Source: Sulfuritalea sp.
GTDB lineage: Bacteria > Pseudomonadota > Gammaproteobacteria > Burkholderiales > Rhodocyclaceae
NCBI RefSeq assembly: GCF_017302275.1
Contig: NZ_JAFLDR010000006.1
Coordinates: 62,001 to 126,000, forward strand
Direction: 5' to 3'
Length of the DNA stretch: 64,000 bases
The position numbers and the translations under genes are program-made. Below the pieces are notes generated by a model. It saw nothing but the letters and a program-made list of their open reading frames with translations, made no database searches and was not told where the DNA came from. Position 1 is the stretch's first letter, and every line of letters begins with the position of its first letter. This document shows positions 29,122 through 36,466 of this stretch, piece after piece.

Positions 29122-29925
29122 TTAAGTCAAGATCAATTTGCCGCCGATCAGCAGCAGCACGGAAGCGAGCAGGCCGCGCAGGGCGCGTTCGGGAACCCGG
29201 GCGGCAAAATGGGCACCGAGCGCGATGCCGGGTAGCGAACCGATCAGCAGCGAAACCAGCAGCACCACGTCGACCGTGCCCAGCCACCAGTGGCCGAGCC
29301 CGGCGACCAGGGTCAGCGGCACGGCGTGGGCGATGTCGGAGCCGACAATGCGGCGCGTAGCGAGCTGCGGATAGAGGAAGGTCAGCGCGGTGACACCGAG
29401 GGCGCCGGCGCCGACCGAGGAGATCGTCACCAGTGCGCCGACCACGACACCGACGGCGACCGTCAGGCTGGCAACATGGCGATGCGAAAAGTCGGCGCTG
29501 GCGCTACGGCGTTTTGCGAGGTCCAGCAGGCGCTGGCGGAAAAACAGGGAGAGGGCGGTCAGCAGCAGGGCGAATCCGAGCACCACCGAGATCAGGCCCG
29601 TGGCGCCGTGGCCCTGCACCCCGAGTTGCGCCAGCACCAGCAGAGTCAGCGCGGCCGCCGGCACGCTGCCCAGCGCCAGGCGTCCGGTGATCGCCCAGTC
29701 GATGTTGCCGTGGCGATGGTGCACCCAGGAACCGCCGCTCTTGGTGATCGCCGCGTAAAGCAAGTCAGTACCCACTGCGGTGGCCGGCTTGAAGCCGAAG
29801 AGCAGGACCAGCAGCGGAGTCATCAGCGAACCGCCGCCGACGCCGGTCAGGCCGACCAGAACGCCGACGGCGAAACCGGAAAAAGGGAGGGCGGGATTGA
29901 AGGCGAATTCCATGATGCAGTGCAT
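29122..29925 (-). CDS. TSUP family (TauE/SafE) sulfite/sulfur-compound permease
   Basis: This 267-residue inner-membrane protein has about eight hydrophobic segments and the paired GxxGGGS-type loops of the TauE/SafE family (VGLTGVGGGSLMTPLLVLLF and VTISSVGAGALGVTALTFLY). Such permeases move sulfite, sulfate or sulfonates. Being the first gene of the cys operon, it probably handles sulfate uptake or sulfite efflux (inference). The start is 29925 or 29913 (MEFAFNPALP); neither has a clear ribosome site. A short R1 repeat in a predicted loop encodes KRRSASADF. Confidence 0.88.
   Translation of the reverse strand: MHCIMEFAFNPALPFSGFAVGVLVGLTGVGGGSLMTPLLVLLFGFKPATAVGTDLLYAAITKSGGSWVHHRHGNIDWAITGRLALGSVPAAALTLLVLAQLGVQGHGATGLISVVLGFALLLTALSLFFRQRLLDLAKRRSASADFSHRHVASLTVAVGVVVGALVTISSVGAGALGVTALTFLYPQLATRRIVGSDIAHAVPLTLVAGLGHWWLGTVDVVLLVSLLIGSLPGIALGAHFAARVPERALRGLLASVLLLIGGKLILT
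29489..29511 (+). repeat. R1 short repeat inside the TSUP permease gene (copy B)
   Basis: It begins AAGTCGGCGCTGG and ends CGCTACGGCG, identical to the intergenic copy at 33304 over all 23 bases. It is read antisense by the permease gene and encodes RRSASADF in a hydrophilic loop between membrane segments. Confidence 0.75.
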
Positions 29926-31964: not shown

Positions 31965-33302
31965 ATGTCACAGGCTTTTGCACACACTCAGGAGGCGTTG
32001 CGCGCGCTGGCGCAGGATGTCCTCGACTATGCGGCGAGCCGTGGTGCGACGGCCTGCGAGGTCGATGTTTCGGAAGGGTCCGGCCAATCGGTCAGCGTGC
32101 GGCGCCAGGAAGTCGAAACCATCGAGTACAACCGTGACAAGGGGCTCGGCATTTCGGTGTATATCGGCCAGCGGCGCGGCCATGCCAGCAGCTCCGATTT
32201 CTCGTCGGCGGCGACCCGCGCCTCGGTCGATGCCGCATTGTCGATCGCCCGCTTCACCGCCGAGGACGACTGCGCCGGGCTGCCCGACGCGAAGTTGCTG
32301 CAGAAGAAGGAAATGGACCTCGACCTCTTCCACCCATGGAACATTTCCGTGGAAGATTCGATCGACCTCGCCCGGTGCTGCGAGCAGGCGGCGTTCGATG
32401 TCAGCCCGATGGTGAAGAACTCCGAAGGCGCCACCATCTCCGCACAGCAATCGCATTTCGTTTCCGCCAACAGCCTGGGCTTCATGGGCGGCTTCGCCAC
32501 GTCGCGCCACTACATCTCCTGCTCGGTGATCGCCGGCGAGGGCGACGACATGCAGCGCGACGACTGGTACGCGACGCGCCGCGACGCTGCCGGCTTCCCC
32601 GATGCCGCGCGCATCGGCGACTACGCGGCGCGGCGCGCGCTGGCGCGCCTGGGCTCGCGCAAGCTGAAGACGCGCAAATGCCCGGTGATCTTCGAGGCGC
32701 CGCTGGCATCAGGCCTGATCGGCAGCTTCGTGCACGCGATTTCCGGCGGCGCGCTGTACCGCAAGACCTCCTTCCTGCTCGACAGCCTCGGCAAGAAACT
32801 GTTTCCCGATTTCGTCGAGATCAGCGAGCGCCCCCACATTCGCGGCGGCTTCGCCTCCTCGCCCTTCGATGACGATGGCGTTGCCACGCGTGATCGCGAG
32901 GTAGTGAAGAACGGTGTGCTGCAAGGCTACTTCCTGTCCAGCTACTCGGCGCGCAAGCTGGGCATGCAGACCACCGGCAATGCCGGCGGCTCGCACAACC
33001 TGCTGGTGCAACCGGGGCGGCACGACCTCAAGGGACTGTTGCGCGAAATGGGCAGCGGCCTGCTGGTGACCGAACTGCTCGGACAGGGAGTCAACTACGT
33101 CACCGGCGACTACTCGCGCGGCGCCGCCGGCTACTGGGTGGAGAAGGGCGAGATCGCCTACCCGGTCGAGGAAATCACCATCGCCGGCAACCTGCGCGAG
33201 ATGCTGCGCGGAATCGTCGCCATCGGCAATGACATCGAGGTTCGCGGCTCGAAACAGGTCGGTTCGATCCTGGTCGAACGCATGACCATCGCCGGCAATT
33301 AG
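31965..33302 (+). CDS. pmbA: Metalloprotease PmbA/TldE
   Basis: PmbA has 445 residues and is the non-catalytic-metal partner of TldD. Together they degrade unfolded peptides and mature microcin B17 or CcdA-type substrates. The family is recognised from VRRQEVETIEYNRDKGLGIS, the central SGGALYRKTSFLLDSLGK, and the C-terminal block GVNYVTGDYSRGAAGYWVE. TldD is not in the window. The TAG stop is followed after one base by an R1 repeat. Confidence 0.95.
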   Translation: MSQAFAHTQEALRALAQDVLDYAASRGATACEVDVSEGSGQSVSVRRQEVETIEYNRDKGLGISVYIGQRRGHASSSDFSSAATRASVDAALSIARFTAEDDCAGLPDAKLLQKKEMDLDLFHPWNISVEDSIDLARCCEQAAFDVSPMVKNSEGATISAQQSHFVSANSLGFMGGFATSRHYISCSVIAGEGDDMQRDDWYATRRDAAGFPDAARIGDYAARRALARLGSRKLKTRKCPVIFEAPLASGLIGSFVHAISGGALYRKTSFLLDSLGKKLFPDFVEISERPHIRGGFASSPFDDDGVATRDREVVKNGVLQGYFLSSYSARKLGMQTTGNAGGSHNLLVQPGRHDLKGLLREMGSGLLVTELLGQGVNYVTGDYSRGAAGYWVEKGEIAYPVEEITIAGNLREMLRGIVAIGNDIEVRGSKQVGSILVERMTIAGN

Positions 33303-33303
33303 A

Positions 33304-33326
33304 AAGTCGGCGCTGGCGCTACGGCG
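33304..33326 (+). repeat. R1 short repeat at the left edge of the nuclease islet (copy C)
   Basis: It begins AAGTCGGCGCTGG and ends CGCTACGGCG, starting one base after the pmbA stop codon. It is identical to copy B and is the inverted partner of copy D (36406-36428), which lies at the other edge of the lower-GC islet. Confidence 0.8.
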
Positions 33327-33400
33327 AGATTTTATTGAGGCAGAGACAGGCCATTTCCGGTCAATGGCACCGCGCTTCCATACCGGTCATTGGTTCTGAT

Positions 33401-34963
33401 CTACTGCGCTTTCGTGAGATCGATACTCAGTGAGCCTTGCTTTTCTGCGTAACTGGCAAGGTAGAACTCAATTGTGTCGCCTTCAATTTGGAGGGAATTC
33501 TCCGTCACGAAACGGCGAAGTTTTCCCAATGCCTCGGCCGCCTTGATGTCATCCAGACTTACGGCAATCACGCATTCGATGGTCATCCTATCGGGCATCT
33601 TTCCATTGAATCCGAGAACGTCCTTGTACCAGATATGCCCCGATTCCTCTGCCCGCAGCATCTTTAGCACAGTCACGCCGTAGATGTAGGCCTGCCTGTA
33701 GGCCTGCTCAATTGCCTGCGCCTTTACTCCGGGCCGCTTCAGTTCCCAAATGGATAGTCGCGTCCGATTTCCAACGCGACGGCGCGCCATGATGTCGATA
33801 TTGCCCCTTTTCGCCTCGGGCTTACCTGTGTTTCCAGAGATCGGGACGGGCAATTGGAACGGGCAGCCGGCGAGTAGAACTGGCTGTATATTGTTCTTCA
33901 TGGTGTTATTGAATATCTTGCTTGAACTATCCGCCATCTGCTGGAGAAATATTGACTCAATGCGATGTTCCTCTGAGCGCCCTCGTGGCTCAGCGCCTAG
34001 ATTCTTGAAATGCCTTCTGAATTTCTTGGATTCCTCGCCCGTCCAATCGAAGTGGCCCTCCTGACCAACCCCGAAATATTTCTTATTTTTGTCGGCCGTA
34101 TTCTTGTCAATATGCAGTTGCGGACTGCCATCGACAAGTAGGTCGGCTACATGTTGTCCTTGGTAACGCAAAGAGAACGCAATACGCTTTTTCTTGGCTC
34201 GCGCCACGGAAAGATAGACCTTGAGCGGTTCCCACTGATGGAACGTCTTTGCCGCCTTCAGCAAAACCTCTTGGCTGCCAACCAAGTCATTAGCCCACCC
34301 GACACCCTTGTACCCCTTCGTCCGAACTTCTTCCCAACGTACTTCAATCTGTTCAAGTAAGCTCAAAGTCGAAAACTCCTGTTGATGTCGGGTCATAGCG
34401 AGATAGATTTTGGCCAACATGTGCGCATCCAGCAATGTGCCGTGATACTGGCGACGGGGAATATCCAACTGGTAGTCTGCGCAGAGCGCATTTATATTGT
34501 TCTTGAGGCCCGGTCGAATTGCCCTAGCCATTTTGAGCGTATCGACTATGCCGGCGACGATTGTCTCTAGTGGCGAAAGTTTCAATAGGGCTAGCTCGTG
34601 GTTGAGATAGGTGGCATCGAACTCCGCGTTGTGTAGGACCAGTTCGGCACCGCGGACGAAATCCATAAAGTCAAAGGCGACCTCGGCGAACTTAGGCTTG
34701 TCGGCAAGGAATTCGTCGGACAGACCGTGTATGTACTCGGAAGAGCCCACCAAACGTTCCGGATTCAGATAGTGATGGAAAGTGCGGCCTGTTCGCTTCC
34801 TCCCGATCATCTCGACGCCGCCAATTTCCGTGATGCGATCGTCAGGCTCCAATCCGGTTATTTCGAGGTCCAGTACAACTCTGCGCACATCATGTCCTGC
34901 TGTCGTCGCGCCGTGCTTTAGGTCATCGGCAGCTTTGGCGGCGACCAAACGTTTATGGTTCAT
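33401..34963 (-). CDS. DnaQ-like 3'-5' exonuclease fused to a PD-(D/E)XK-like nuclease domain
   Basis: This 520-residue protein starts at the ATG at 34963, which has AAGGA 6 nt upstream; a second ATG two codons earlier abuts that site. Residues 25-185 form a DEDDh exonuclease: Exo I DLEITG (D32, E34), HGLSDEF, Exo II HNAEFDATYL (D116), and Exo III HGTLLDA (H174, D179), laid out like DNA polymerase III epsilon. Residues about 380-450 carry NIDIM...WELKRPG (D390, E407, K409) and a following Q/Y-rich helix, as in PD-(D/E)XK nucleases. The middle (200-370) is unrecognised. Base composition is visibly lower in GC than the flanks. It lies 79 bp after the MBL gene, probably in one transcript. Confidence 0.75.
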   Translation of the reverse strand: MNHKRLVAAKAADDLKHGATTAGHDVRRVVLDLEITGLEPDDRITEIGGVEMIGRKRTGRTFHHYLNPERLVGSSEYIHGLSDEFLADKPKFAEVAFDFMDFVRGAELVLHNAEFDATYLNHELALLKLSPLETIVAGIVDTLKMARAIRPGLKNNINALCADYQLDIPRRQYHGTLLDAHMLAKIYLAMTRHQQEFSTLSLLEQIEVRWEEVRTKGYKGVGWANDLVGSQEVLLKAAKTFHQWEPLKVYLSVARAKKKRIAFSLRYQGQHVADLLVDGSPQLHIDKNTADKNKKYFGVGQEGHFDWTGEESKKFRRHFKNLGAEPRGRSEEHRIESIFLQQMADSSSKIFNNTMKNNIQPVLLAGCPFQLPVPISGNTGKPEAKRGNIDIMARRRVGNRTRLSIWELKRPGVKAQAIEQAYRQAYIYGVTVLKMLRAEESGHIWYKDVLGFNGKMPDRMTIECVIAVSLDDIKAAEALGKLRRFVTENSLQIEGDTIEFYLASYAEKQGSLSIDLTKAQ

Positions 34964-35042
34964 CTTCATTCCTTCGACATGTTTTCAACAGTATCTGCTA
35001 CTTCCAAACGAGAAAGCGTAATCCAAGGGCGTCGAGCATGAT

Positions 35043-36266
35043 TCATATTTCCCACCATTCGCCGTCAGCGTGAGCGGTGACGTAAGGATACAGTTCGCTA
35101 TACCGTTCGGGTACATCGCTATGGATGGGTACAAGCATCTTCGGATTCAGTGCTGTTACTAGTCGTTTGAGATCACCCGGGCTGGCATGGCCGGACGTGT
35201 GCACTTGATGGAATGGCATGCCGTTAGTTTTTCGCCATGCGTCGATTTTGAGAAGGCGATCTTCCTTCAAGTAACCATCCCATTGCGAATGAATCAGACA
35301 GGCACCATCCAGACAGTTCGCTCGTTCAAGGTCCCGCATCCATAGTTCCCGGAAAATCAGCGCGTAACCTCCCGGATTCTTGGCGATGGTCTTCGGAAAA
35401 ATGCGGTGGCGAGAGTGTCGTTCCAATGCCTCAAACAAACCGGCCTTCTTGATCTGTAGCCGTTGCCGCTGTGGAACACAAAGCGCAATGCGATTCCAAT
35501 CAGATTGGGGAATGTGGGGATTGCCAGTTGCCGCAAGAATTTCGGCGGTGTATAGATCAACTACCAATGTTCGGTGGGTTTTCAGGCATGCACGAAATAT
35601 TGACACCAGACGGTCGATGTTCTGGGCCGAAGCATGGATAAGAGCGATTCCCGTGGTTTCCCGGAATATTTCAGCCAACTCATCTTCAATCGCATCCTCT
35701 GGCTTTGGGGCAACGTTGCATGCTCGCCCCAAGGTGGTTCCTTCGAGAAGAAGAACATCTAGGGATGCAGGTGGGGTCGCCATCAGTCGATCGACCAGTT
35801 CGCGCTTGCGTCCATGCACCCGTATGTCGCCGCTGTAGAAAAGTCGCTTCCCATCAGCTTCGATGAGCAAGGCATAGGAATCATATGCAGAGTGATCCAC
35901 CAAATAGAGGGTAATCCGAAACGACCCAAGGCTTACTGTCTTCCGATCCACAAGACTTGGCCCATCGAGATTGAGTGACGGCTGTCGCATGAAGGGCGCG
36001 GCAGCCCGAAGAATGCGGCGAGCAGCATCCCCCATCAGTACGGGAGTTGTCGGCATCCAGGGCAGCAGGCCGTAATGATCTTGGTGTGGGTGTGAAATAA
36101 CGATGCCACGCAACGAACTTCCGTCGACTATGGGCGGAATTGGCGGAGATTCTGAGTCGCTTGTCAGCGGCATTCCAGCGTCAATTAGGATGGACTCGCC
36201 GCCAGCCTCGACCTGAACACAGGAGCCGCCGATTTCCTTGGCGCCACGATGAATGCAGATTTTCAT
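35043..36266 (-). CDS. Short RNase J-like MBL/beta-CASP hydrolase
   Basis: This protein has about 407 residues from MKICIHRGAKEIGGSC; upstream in-frame ATGs at 36275 and 36308 are also possible and none has a clear ribosome site. The metallo-beta-lactamase core has HPHQDH (59-64), VDHSAYD and FYSGDIR. The beta-CASP part has TSGHAS and VPIHSD, the His motifs B and C of RNase J. It is shorter than RNase J (about 550) and lacks its C-terminal domain. By homology it acts on RNA or DNA 5' ends. It is lower in GC than the surroundings and is paired with the exonuclease fusion downstream. Confidence 0.8.
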   Translation of the reverse strand: MKICIHRGAKEIGGSCVQVEAGGESILIDAGMPLTSDSESPPIPPIVDGSSLRGIVISHPHQDHYGLLPWMPTTPVLMGDAARRILRAAAPFMRQPSLNLDGPSLVDRKTVSLGSFRITLYLVDHSAYDSYALLIEADGKRLFYSGDIRVHGRKRELVDRLMATPPASLDVLLLEGTTLGRACNVAPKPEDAIEDELAEIFRETTGIALIHASAQNIDRLVSIFRACLKTHRTLVVDLYTAEILAATGNPHIPQSDWNRIALCVPQRQRLQIKKAGLFEALERHSRHRIFPKTIAKNPGGYALIFRELWMRDLERANCLDGACLIHSQWDGYLKEDRLLKIDAWRKTNGMPFHQVHTSGHASPGDLKRLVTALNPKMLVPIHSDVPERYSELYPYVTAHADGEWWEI

Positions 36267-36405
36267 AAGCGGCATACTGCCATGCTCGAGGCTCACCACG
36301 TGAGCCATCTTGGACGGGAGTACGCGATGAAGGTCCGCTATCTATTTCCTGCACCGGCAGCAAAGGGCACTCACGAGCCCTTGATGCTTGTCGGCAGGCG
36401 TCAAT

Positions 36406-36428
36406 CGCCGTATCACCAGCGCCGACTT
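36406..36428 (-). repeat. R1 short repeat at the right edge of the nuclease islet (copy D)
   Basis: On the + strand it reads CGCCGTATCACC then AGCGCCGACTT. It is the inverted counterpart of copy C at 33304, with two mismatches to it. The two copies face each other across 3,079 bp holding the two nuclease genes. It lies in the 200-bp spacer between the MBL gene and the 3' end of the next gene. Confidence 0.8.
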
Positions 36429-36466
36429 TCTCGTGCATCGACTTCCGGACCTGTTTCCTGCGTTGC

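Follow-up and report, generated by a model that had tools for sequence, protein, structure and literature searches.

The locus considered here lies within a stretch of 64,000 nucleotides of the Sulfuritalea sp. genome (assembly GCF_017302275.1, contig NZ_JAFLDR010000006.1, positions 62,001 to 126,000), referred to as the window, and consists of an islet of two genes, P0002 and P0001, encoded on the minus strand. P0002 (35043-36308) codes for a 421-amino-acid (aa) metallo-beta-lactamase (MBL)/beta-CASP hydrolase that resembles RNase J and is the part of the islet with relatives elsewhere. P0001 (33401-34969) codes for a protein of 522 aa, in which a DnaQ-like DEDDh exonuclease domain precedes an orphan C-terminal part. 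The two genes, separated by 73 nt from the P0002 stop to the P0001 start (34970-35042), probably form one transcription unit. To the left lies pmbA (31965-33302, plus strand), and to the right, convergent with it, P0004 (36467-37807, minus strand); the names pmbA and, for P0004, spermidine-synthase-like are labels taken from an earlier note made from the DNA letters, given without a Pfam or NCBIfam search. At either edge stands a copy of R1 (AAAGTCGGCGCTGGCGNNACGGCG), an interspersed repeat restricted to the genus. The left copy (33302-33327, plus strand) is located immediately 3' of the pmbA stop at 33302, and the right copy (36405-36430, minus strand) 3' of the stop of P0004; extended to 33301-33327 and 36405-36431, they form inverted arms of 27 nt that are 93% complementary and separated by 3,077 nt. 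Because gene calling between the repeats returned P0002 and P0001 only, both nuclease-like, the islet contains no transposase. This anatomy bears out the description in the earlier note, which had reported two nucleases on one strand, facing R1 copies at the edges, the left one directly after the pmbA stop, and the lack of a transposase.

From the perspective of base composition, the islet is an outlier. The GC content of 33328-36404 is 52.7%, against a mean of 63.8% (standard deviation 3.1) for 3-kb segments of a reference made up of the window and 356 kb of the same genome (420 kb in total), and 0 of the 2,027 overlapping segments outside the islet (step 200) have a GC content this low. The same is seen in codon usage: among 184 genes of at least 900 bp, called with a simple custom script, P0002 ranks lowest and P0001 fourth lowest in GC at third codon positions. 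The lower GC noted previously relative to both sides sets the islet apart from the whole 420 kb.

The site itself can be followed in sister genomes, since pmbA has a match in 30 of the 31 genomes of the genus, with full-length sister proteins at 85-91% identity. Twenty-seven sister loci are readable past the pmbA stop, for 0.4-1.5 kb each; this number leaves aside the window's own locus, one that ends at pmbA (L097) and one that is partial (L114). P0001 is absent from all 27 (tblastn, E 1e-5, up to 1.5 kb past pmbA), while the position of P0002 would fall beyond the stretches read. R1 occurs in the sense of pmbA within about 120 bp of its stop at 16 of the 27 loci, which makes it frequent in the 3' flank of this gene. 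In six (L087, L091, L092, L095, L096 and L100), pmbA, R1 and P0004 are joined directly, with the R1 match in L095 and L096 running a few bases into the end of the P0004 match; these junctions are the empty sites with a single R1 that had been predicted for sister genomes. A P0004-like gene is found some 0.9-1.4 kb from pmbA at five further loci, and at the other 16 it does not appear within the 0.4-1.5 kb read. In the sister genome G012, the same flanks hold other cargo, which on visual inspection is a short gene that has CxC motifs: its left flank (L104) is 83% identical to window positions 33303-33354 and includes R1, and its right flank is 83% identical to 36353-36462 and includes an R1-like copy. 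The left flank of another genome, G020, is 83% identical to 33303-33362. Full-length relatives of P0002 do occur in G012, G014 and G025, on a contig other than that of pmbA, and a comparison of the P0002 gene with the MBL gene of G012 shows homology that ends at the gene borders.

Taken together, the outlying GC and codon usage, the absence of P0001 from 27 of 27 sites, the direct junctions, the other cargo in G012, the location of P0002 relatives off the pmbA contig and the homology ending at gene borders make it highly likely that the islet was acquired horizontally; the pmbA-P0004 interval is a variable spot and its present cargo is recent. As an aside, the small cargo gene of G012 (L104 / L225) is flanked by GTTAGGCGC on one side and GCGCCTAAC on the other; judged by eye, these resemble the ends of integron (attC) cassettes.

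P0002 carries the Pfam domains Lactamase_B_2, Lactamase_B and RMMBL above their cut-offs, and its nearest solved relatives are EF2904 (the best match; PDB 2az4) and RNase J proteins. With P0002 aligned to EF2904, the predicted metal and catalytic residues are H73, H75, D77, H78, H139, D161, E189, H374 and H396; all 81 aligned sequences share them, except that H396 is kept in 80 of 81. The protein has the features that define beta-CASP members of the MBL superfamily, namely the HxHxDH motif (73-78), the later histidine and aspartate ligands, and motifs A (E), B (H) and C (H), of which the motif C histidine marks RNA-type beta-CASP enzymes. An assignment to RNase J was rejected, as TIGR00649 scores 64.4 bits against a cut-off of 400 and RnjA 57.2 against 820, with a length of only 421 aa, and so was an assignment to the Cas14 protein of type VII CRISPR systems (NCBIfam, 42.5 bits against 800). 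Full-length relatives are present in 5 of 121 related genomes, its own included (the others at 85, 66, 64 and 51% identity), and, at E <= 1e-60, in 3 of 369 genomes of the class, again with its own; by this distribution of sequence matches, P0002 is an accessory gene.

In P0001, the DEDDh domain spans approximately residues 28-200, and alignment to E. coli epsilon recovers the complete set D34, E36, D118, H176 and D181; D, E, D, H and D are the catalytic set of DEDDh exonucleases. The RNase_T model gives 103 bits against a cut-off of 24, and the DnaQ models lie above one cut-off (208 against 196) and below another (198.3 against 222.7). P0001 is not the epsilon subunit of DNA polymerase III, given that the DnaQ match stops at residue 203, at model position 180 of 234. 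Among 21 loci compared, the best match of the exonuclease domain is to DnaQ of the same genus (62%), with which it also groups in a tree (SH-like approximate likelihood-ratio test, SH-aLRT, 99); the origin of the domain stays unsure because its branch is 1.57 changes per column long. The C-terminal part, about 320 residues, contains a PD-(D/E)XK-like motif, GNIDIMARRRVGNRTRLSIWELK (389-411), followed by QAYIY (426-430), and may have a PD-(D/E)XK fold, with D392, E409 and K411 as the candidate D and ExK residues. No relatives of this part were found at E <= 0.001 in 368 other genomes of the class, nor in viral contigs, a scan sensitive to close relatives only. Compared with the profiles of four partner families described below, it matched none significantly; the nearest was A6, with the motif aligned, at E 0.031. 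A structure prediction from the single sequence reached a predicted local distance difference test (pLDDT) score of 30.5.

What connects this pair to a wider group is the gene that follows P0002-like proteins in other organisms. One scan of species genomes returned 416 relatives, and the analyses were made on the best 80 of these, which span many phyla and include one metagenome-assembled genome of Bathyarchaeota that the tree places among Chloroflexota. Of the genes after the MBL, 44 of 69 have a PD-(D/E)XK-like motif, as do 34 of 58 once near copies are removed, whereas control neighbours have it in 10 of 198 cases (Fisher p 6e-23 for 44 of 69); the motif is missing nearby in 24 of the 80 loci. 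These next genes lie on the same strand as the MBL gene, belong to several sequence families and, when ORFs (open reading frames) are taken with the longest start, adjoin or overlap the stop of the MBL gene at 46 of 69 loci. At two loci, one of them from Marinospirillum (L148), the MBL and a PD-(D/E)XK nuclease are fused, the nuclease parts being different. A separate DEDDh gene also occurs twice, after MBL and nuclease genes in L123 and after a fusion in L195, so that MBL, PD-(D/E)XK and DEDDh components recur together at least there. The stand-alone DnaQ-like exonuclease at L123:10060-10599 appears by eye to have lost three of the five catalytic residues, which hints at a structural role for it.

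The partners change along the MBL tree, with 29 changes over 10 partner labels (among them 'other' and 'none') against a minimum of 9 and a shuffled mean of 52.2. In partner family A4, the conserved D and ExK (D176, E194 and K196) are invariant in 14 of 14 sequences, and the model of one partner family resembles PD-(D/E)XK nucleases, as far as a predicted structure indicates. A Foldseek search with family A4 gave nothing at E <= 0.001; against solved structures, the A3 profile had no match and A5 a single chance-level one to an unrelated protein (E 0.74); and PADLOC matches on partner proteins were weak or single cases. PcfJ-like proteins directly follow the MBL in eight loci (L117, L118, L119, L121, L140, L144, L147 and L168), and on plasmids of Cereibacter and Prevotella (L198 and L202) the MBL is followed by a metallophosphoesterase gene rather than a nuclease gene. 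The P0002-P0001 pair very probably belongs to this recurring MBL-nuclease module, with good support in the case of the MBL and fair support in that of P0001.

Relatives of P0002 are also carried by mobile DNA. They occur on nine plasmid records, at 27-42% identity, and seven of these regions were inspected. In one, the MBL adjoins methylase and nuclease genes; in another, it has a Tn3 transposase on one side and TniB/TniQ genes on the other; in a third, it lies near DUF262, WYL and 3'-5' exonuclease genes, and in these last two it is paired with a metallophosphoesterase; in a fourth, a PD-(D/E)XK family gene comes two genes further on and a UvrD-type helicase three. The remaining regions comprise one with insertion sequence (IS) and recombinase genes, one with mixed genes and one that is unannotated. 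Viral collections hold few relatives, namely three loci in IMG/VR (46, 46 and 24% identity) and seven phage records, all below 30%. Around the relatives, PADLOC recognised 118 families from 125 of 458 flanking ORFs, and among control ORFs of this genome 54 families from 113 of 227, figures that do not represent a measured enrichment. Within the window, 41 of the 63 called genes were given to PADLOC, and the only matches were the DEDDh domain of P0001 and one E1-E2-type protein. P0002 obtained no match, and no description of such an MBL-nuclease pair was found in the openly licensed literature, in agreement with the earlier remark that no named defence system is known to have this composition. 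The window has no Rfam match at gathering scores and no tRNA, and the predicted promoters (0) and terminators (3) are uninformative next to 2.5 and 3.5 in shuffles.

The reading favoured here, at a probability of about one half, is that the islet is a recent copy of a nuclease module that spreads horizontally and whose likeliest role is defence against foreign DNA, as would fit its mobility, the exchange of partners, its nuclease content and the company it keeps. Its constant part would be P0002, an RNA-type beta-CASP metallo-hydrolase predicted to be active because its residues are near-invariant, and its exchangeable part a PD-(D/E)XK nuclease, in P0001 presumably fused to a DnaQ-like 3'-5' exonuclease. 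The module would have been swapped into the variable pmbA-P0004 spot, inside R1 copies that are found there with other cargo too. Once in place, its components may act jointly: the PD-(D/E)XK part would sense invading DNA and cut or nick it, the DEDDh part would resect the 3' ends so exposed, and RNA (or processed ends) of the invader or, failing that, of the cell would be cleaved by the beta-CASP enzyme. That P0002 relatives from bacteria, and from one archaeon or more, are found with changing partners suggests, from sequence comparison, an undescribed and probably defensive gene pair. Whether this amounts to a class of prokaryotic immune modules in its own right, with an RNA-type beta-CASP core and exchanged next-gene nucleases of the PD-(D/E)XK (sometimes DEDDh) type across bacterial phyla and archaea, of which the window would hold a version joining a DnaQ-like exonuclease to a PD-(D/E)XK domain, is a more tentative proposal, for which the odds are judged to be somewhat below even.

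Tight coupling, gene overlap and exchangeable partners are also what a selfish toxin-antitoxin or plasmid-stability module would display, in which one nuclease would be toxic to the cell and be held in check by the other protein (or by that protein's RNA product), any anti-phage effect being secondary or absent; the presence of relatives on plasmids, beside TniB/TniQ and IS genes, would suit it as well. However, both parts look like enzymes and the residues of the MBL hardly vary, which would be unusual for an antitoxin, and fusions of the two parts exist, so this explanation is regarded as unlikely. The likeness of P0002 to RNase J, together with the loci in which the motif is missing nearby, would instead be accommodated if P0002 were an accessory cellular enzyme of RNA or DNA processing (repair or RNA turnover), with nuclease neighbours that merely share residence on mobile islands and have no joint function with it. 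Against this speak the position of the neighbour, which is on the same strand, directly downstream, often overlapping, drawn from several families and fused twice, and a sparse distribution between phyla that is unlike that of a housekeeping enzyme; it is likewise considered improbable.

A different kind of alternative concerns the mode of transfer, and holds that the cassette is bounded by the inverted R1 copies and was moved in trans, for example by a RAYT-like (REP-associated tyrosine transposase) Y1 transposase encoded elsewhere in the genome. The ends are indeed inverted and near-identical, and the genome has one Y1_Tnp gene that by eye has an R1-like copy nearby. The bracket is real, yet non-specific, because R1 is abundant: the 26-mer with up to three mismatches has three matches in the window, the two arms and one at 29487-29512, where shuffles give an expectation of 0.00, and 292+299 in the genome of 4.41 Mb, against one for a reversed-pattern control. 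The 24-nt core with up to two mismatches is present in 24-602 copies in all 31 genomes of the genus, and in 0-4 copies in each of 30 genomes outside it. Moreover, R1 persists in the empty sites, and the sequence shared with G012 continues inside both copies, covering 33328-33354 on the left (common also to G020), with the cargo beginning further in, and 36353-36404 on the right, with the cargo finishing before it. Judging from this alignment, the breakpoints of the cargo are not at R1, and the exchanged part starts and ends inside the R1 copies. R1 as the terminal repeat of a cassette, a transposon or a miniature inverted-repeat transposable element (MITE) is hence largely refuted and very improbable. 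Of the acquired cassette between inverted repeats that the earlier note envisaged, the acquired low-GC cargo stands, but the repeats, genus-wide and kept with other cargo, do not serve as its ends. The case carries a caution, since inverted repeats flanking an islet can be a coincidence in genomes dense in short interspersed repeats.

As regards the biology of R1 itself, a single Y1_Tnp (RAYT-like) gene was detected in the genome (G000:C63:9964-10290; L115); by eye, an R1-like copy lies within a few hundred bases of it (about 1040-1070 of L115), and the product of the gene may be the enzyme that spreads R1. A possible role as a strict 3'-end element was also considered: in the 420 kb, only 17 of 78 pattern matches follow a gene stop in the sense orientation, and 50 of 78 lie inside called ORFs, some of which are probably false.

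If the pairing of P0002-like proteins with nucleases is functional, an RNase J-like beta-CASP enzyme would take its place beside ComEC-like MBL nucleases and Cas14 among the core enzymes known so far from modular immunity in bacteria. The gene after this MBL would then be a search handle for unannotated nucleases, and the group would show plainly how a single conserved enzyme can work with a whole range of nuclease partners.

Several known systems share components with the islet. With RNase J and the compact beta-CASP proteins (RNase J1, EF2904 and TTHA0252), P0002 has in common the MBL core, the HxHxDH motif, the later metal ligands and the motif C histidine, and EF2904 (429 aa) is similar to it in length. 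It differs from RNase J in being shorter (421 aa against chains of at least 553), in scoring far under the family cut-offs, in being accessory and in being often followed by a nuclease gene. Shedu (SduA) acts as a single gene, whereas the nuclease is here coupled to an MBL gene, the PD-(D/E)XK fold of P0001 being putative. The Cas14 of type VII CRISPR systems represents a beta-CASP nuclease in a prokaryotic immune setting, from which P0002 is separated by its score, and among the window genes that were run through PADLOC (41), no Cas families were detected other than a generic DEDDh model. The N-terminal domain of P0001 resembles both DnaQ and the PADLOC candidate PDC-S48; in the latter, only positions 7-195 of 411 are matched, and P0001 is not a whole-length PDC-S48. 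One of the 78 A2 proteins does match PDC-S48 at E 7e-127, presumably the 429-aa DEDDh neighbour in L195.

Finally, the nearest described case is that of the trypsin-MBL nuclease-protease pairs, which are reported in Hachiman, AVAST, Lamassu and DRT systems (PMC12799240). These modules are defined by a trypsin-like protease that is fused to the defence enzyme next door, and no trypsin families were found among the 78 proteins scanned here, mostly genes after the MBL. The MBL of these pairs is likened to ComEC, and it is reported to cleave DNA once proteolysed by its trypsin-like partner; its partner is a protease and its type differs from that of P0002, which is RNase J-like. The likeness lies in the architecture, as in both cases the gene of an MBL-type nuclease stands beside exchangeable defence enzymes (putative ones in the present case) and has been repeatedly reshuffled.

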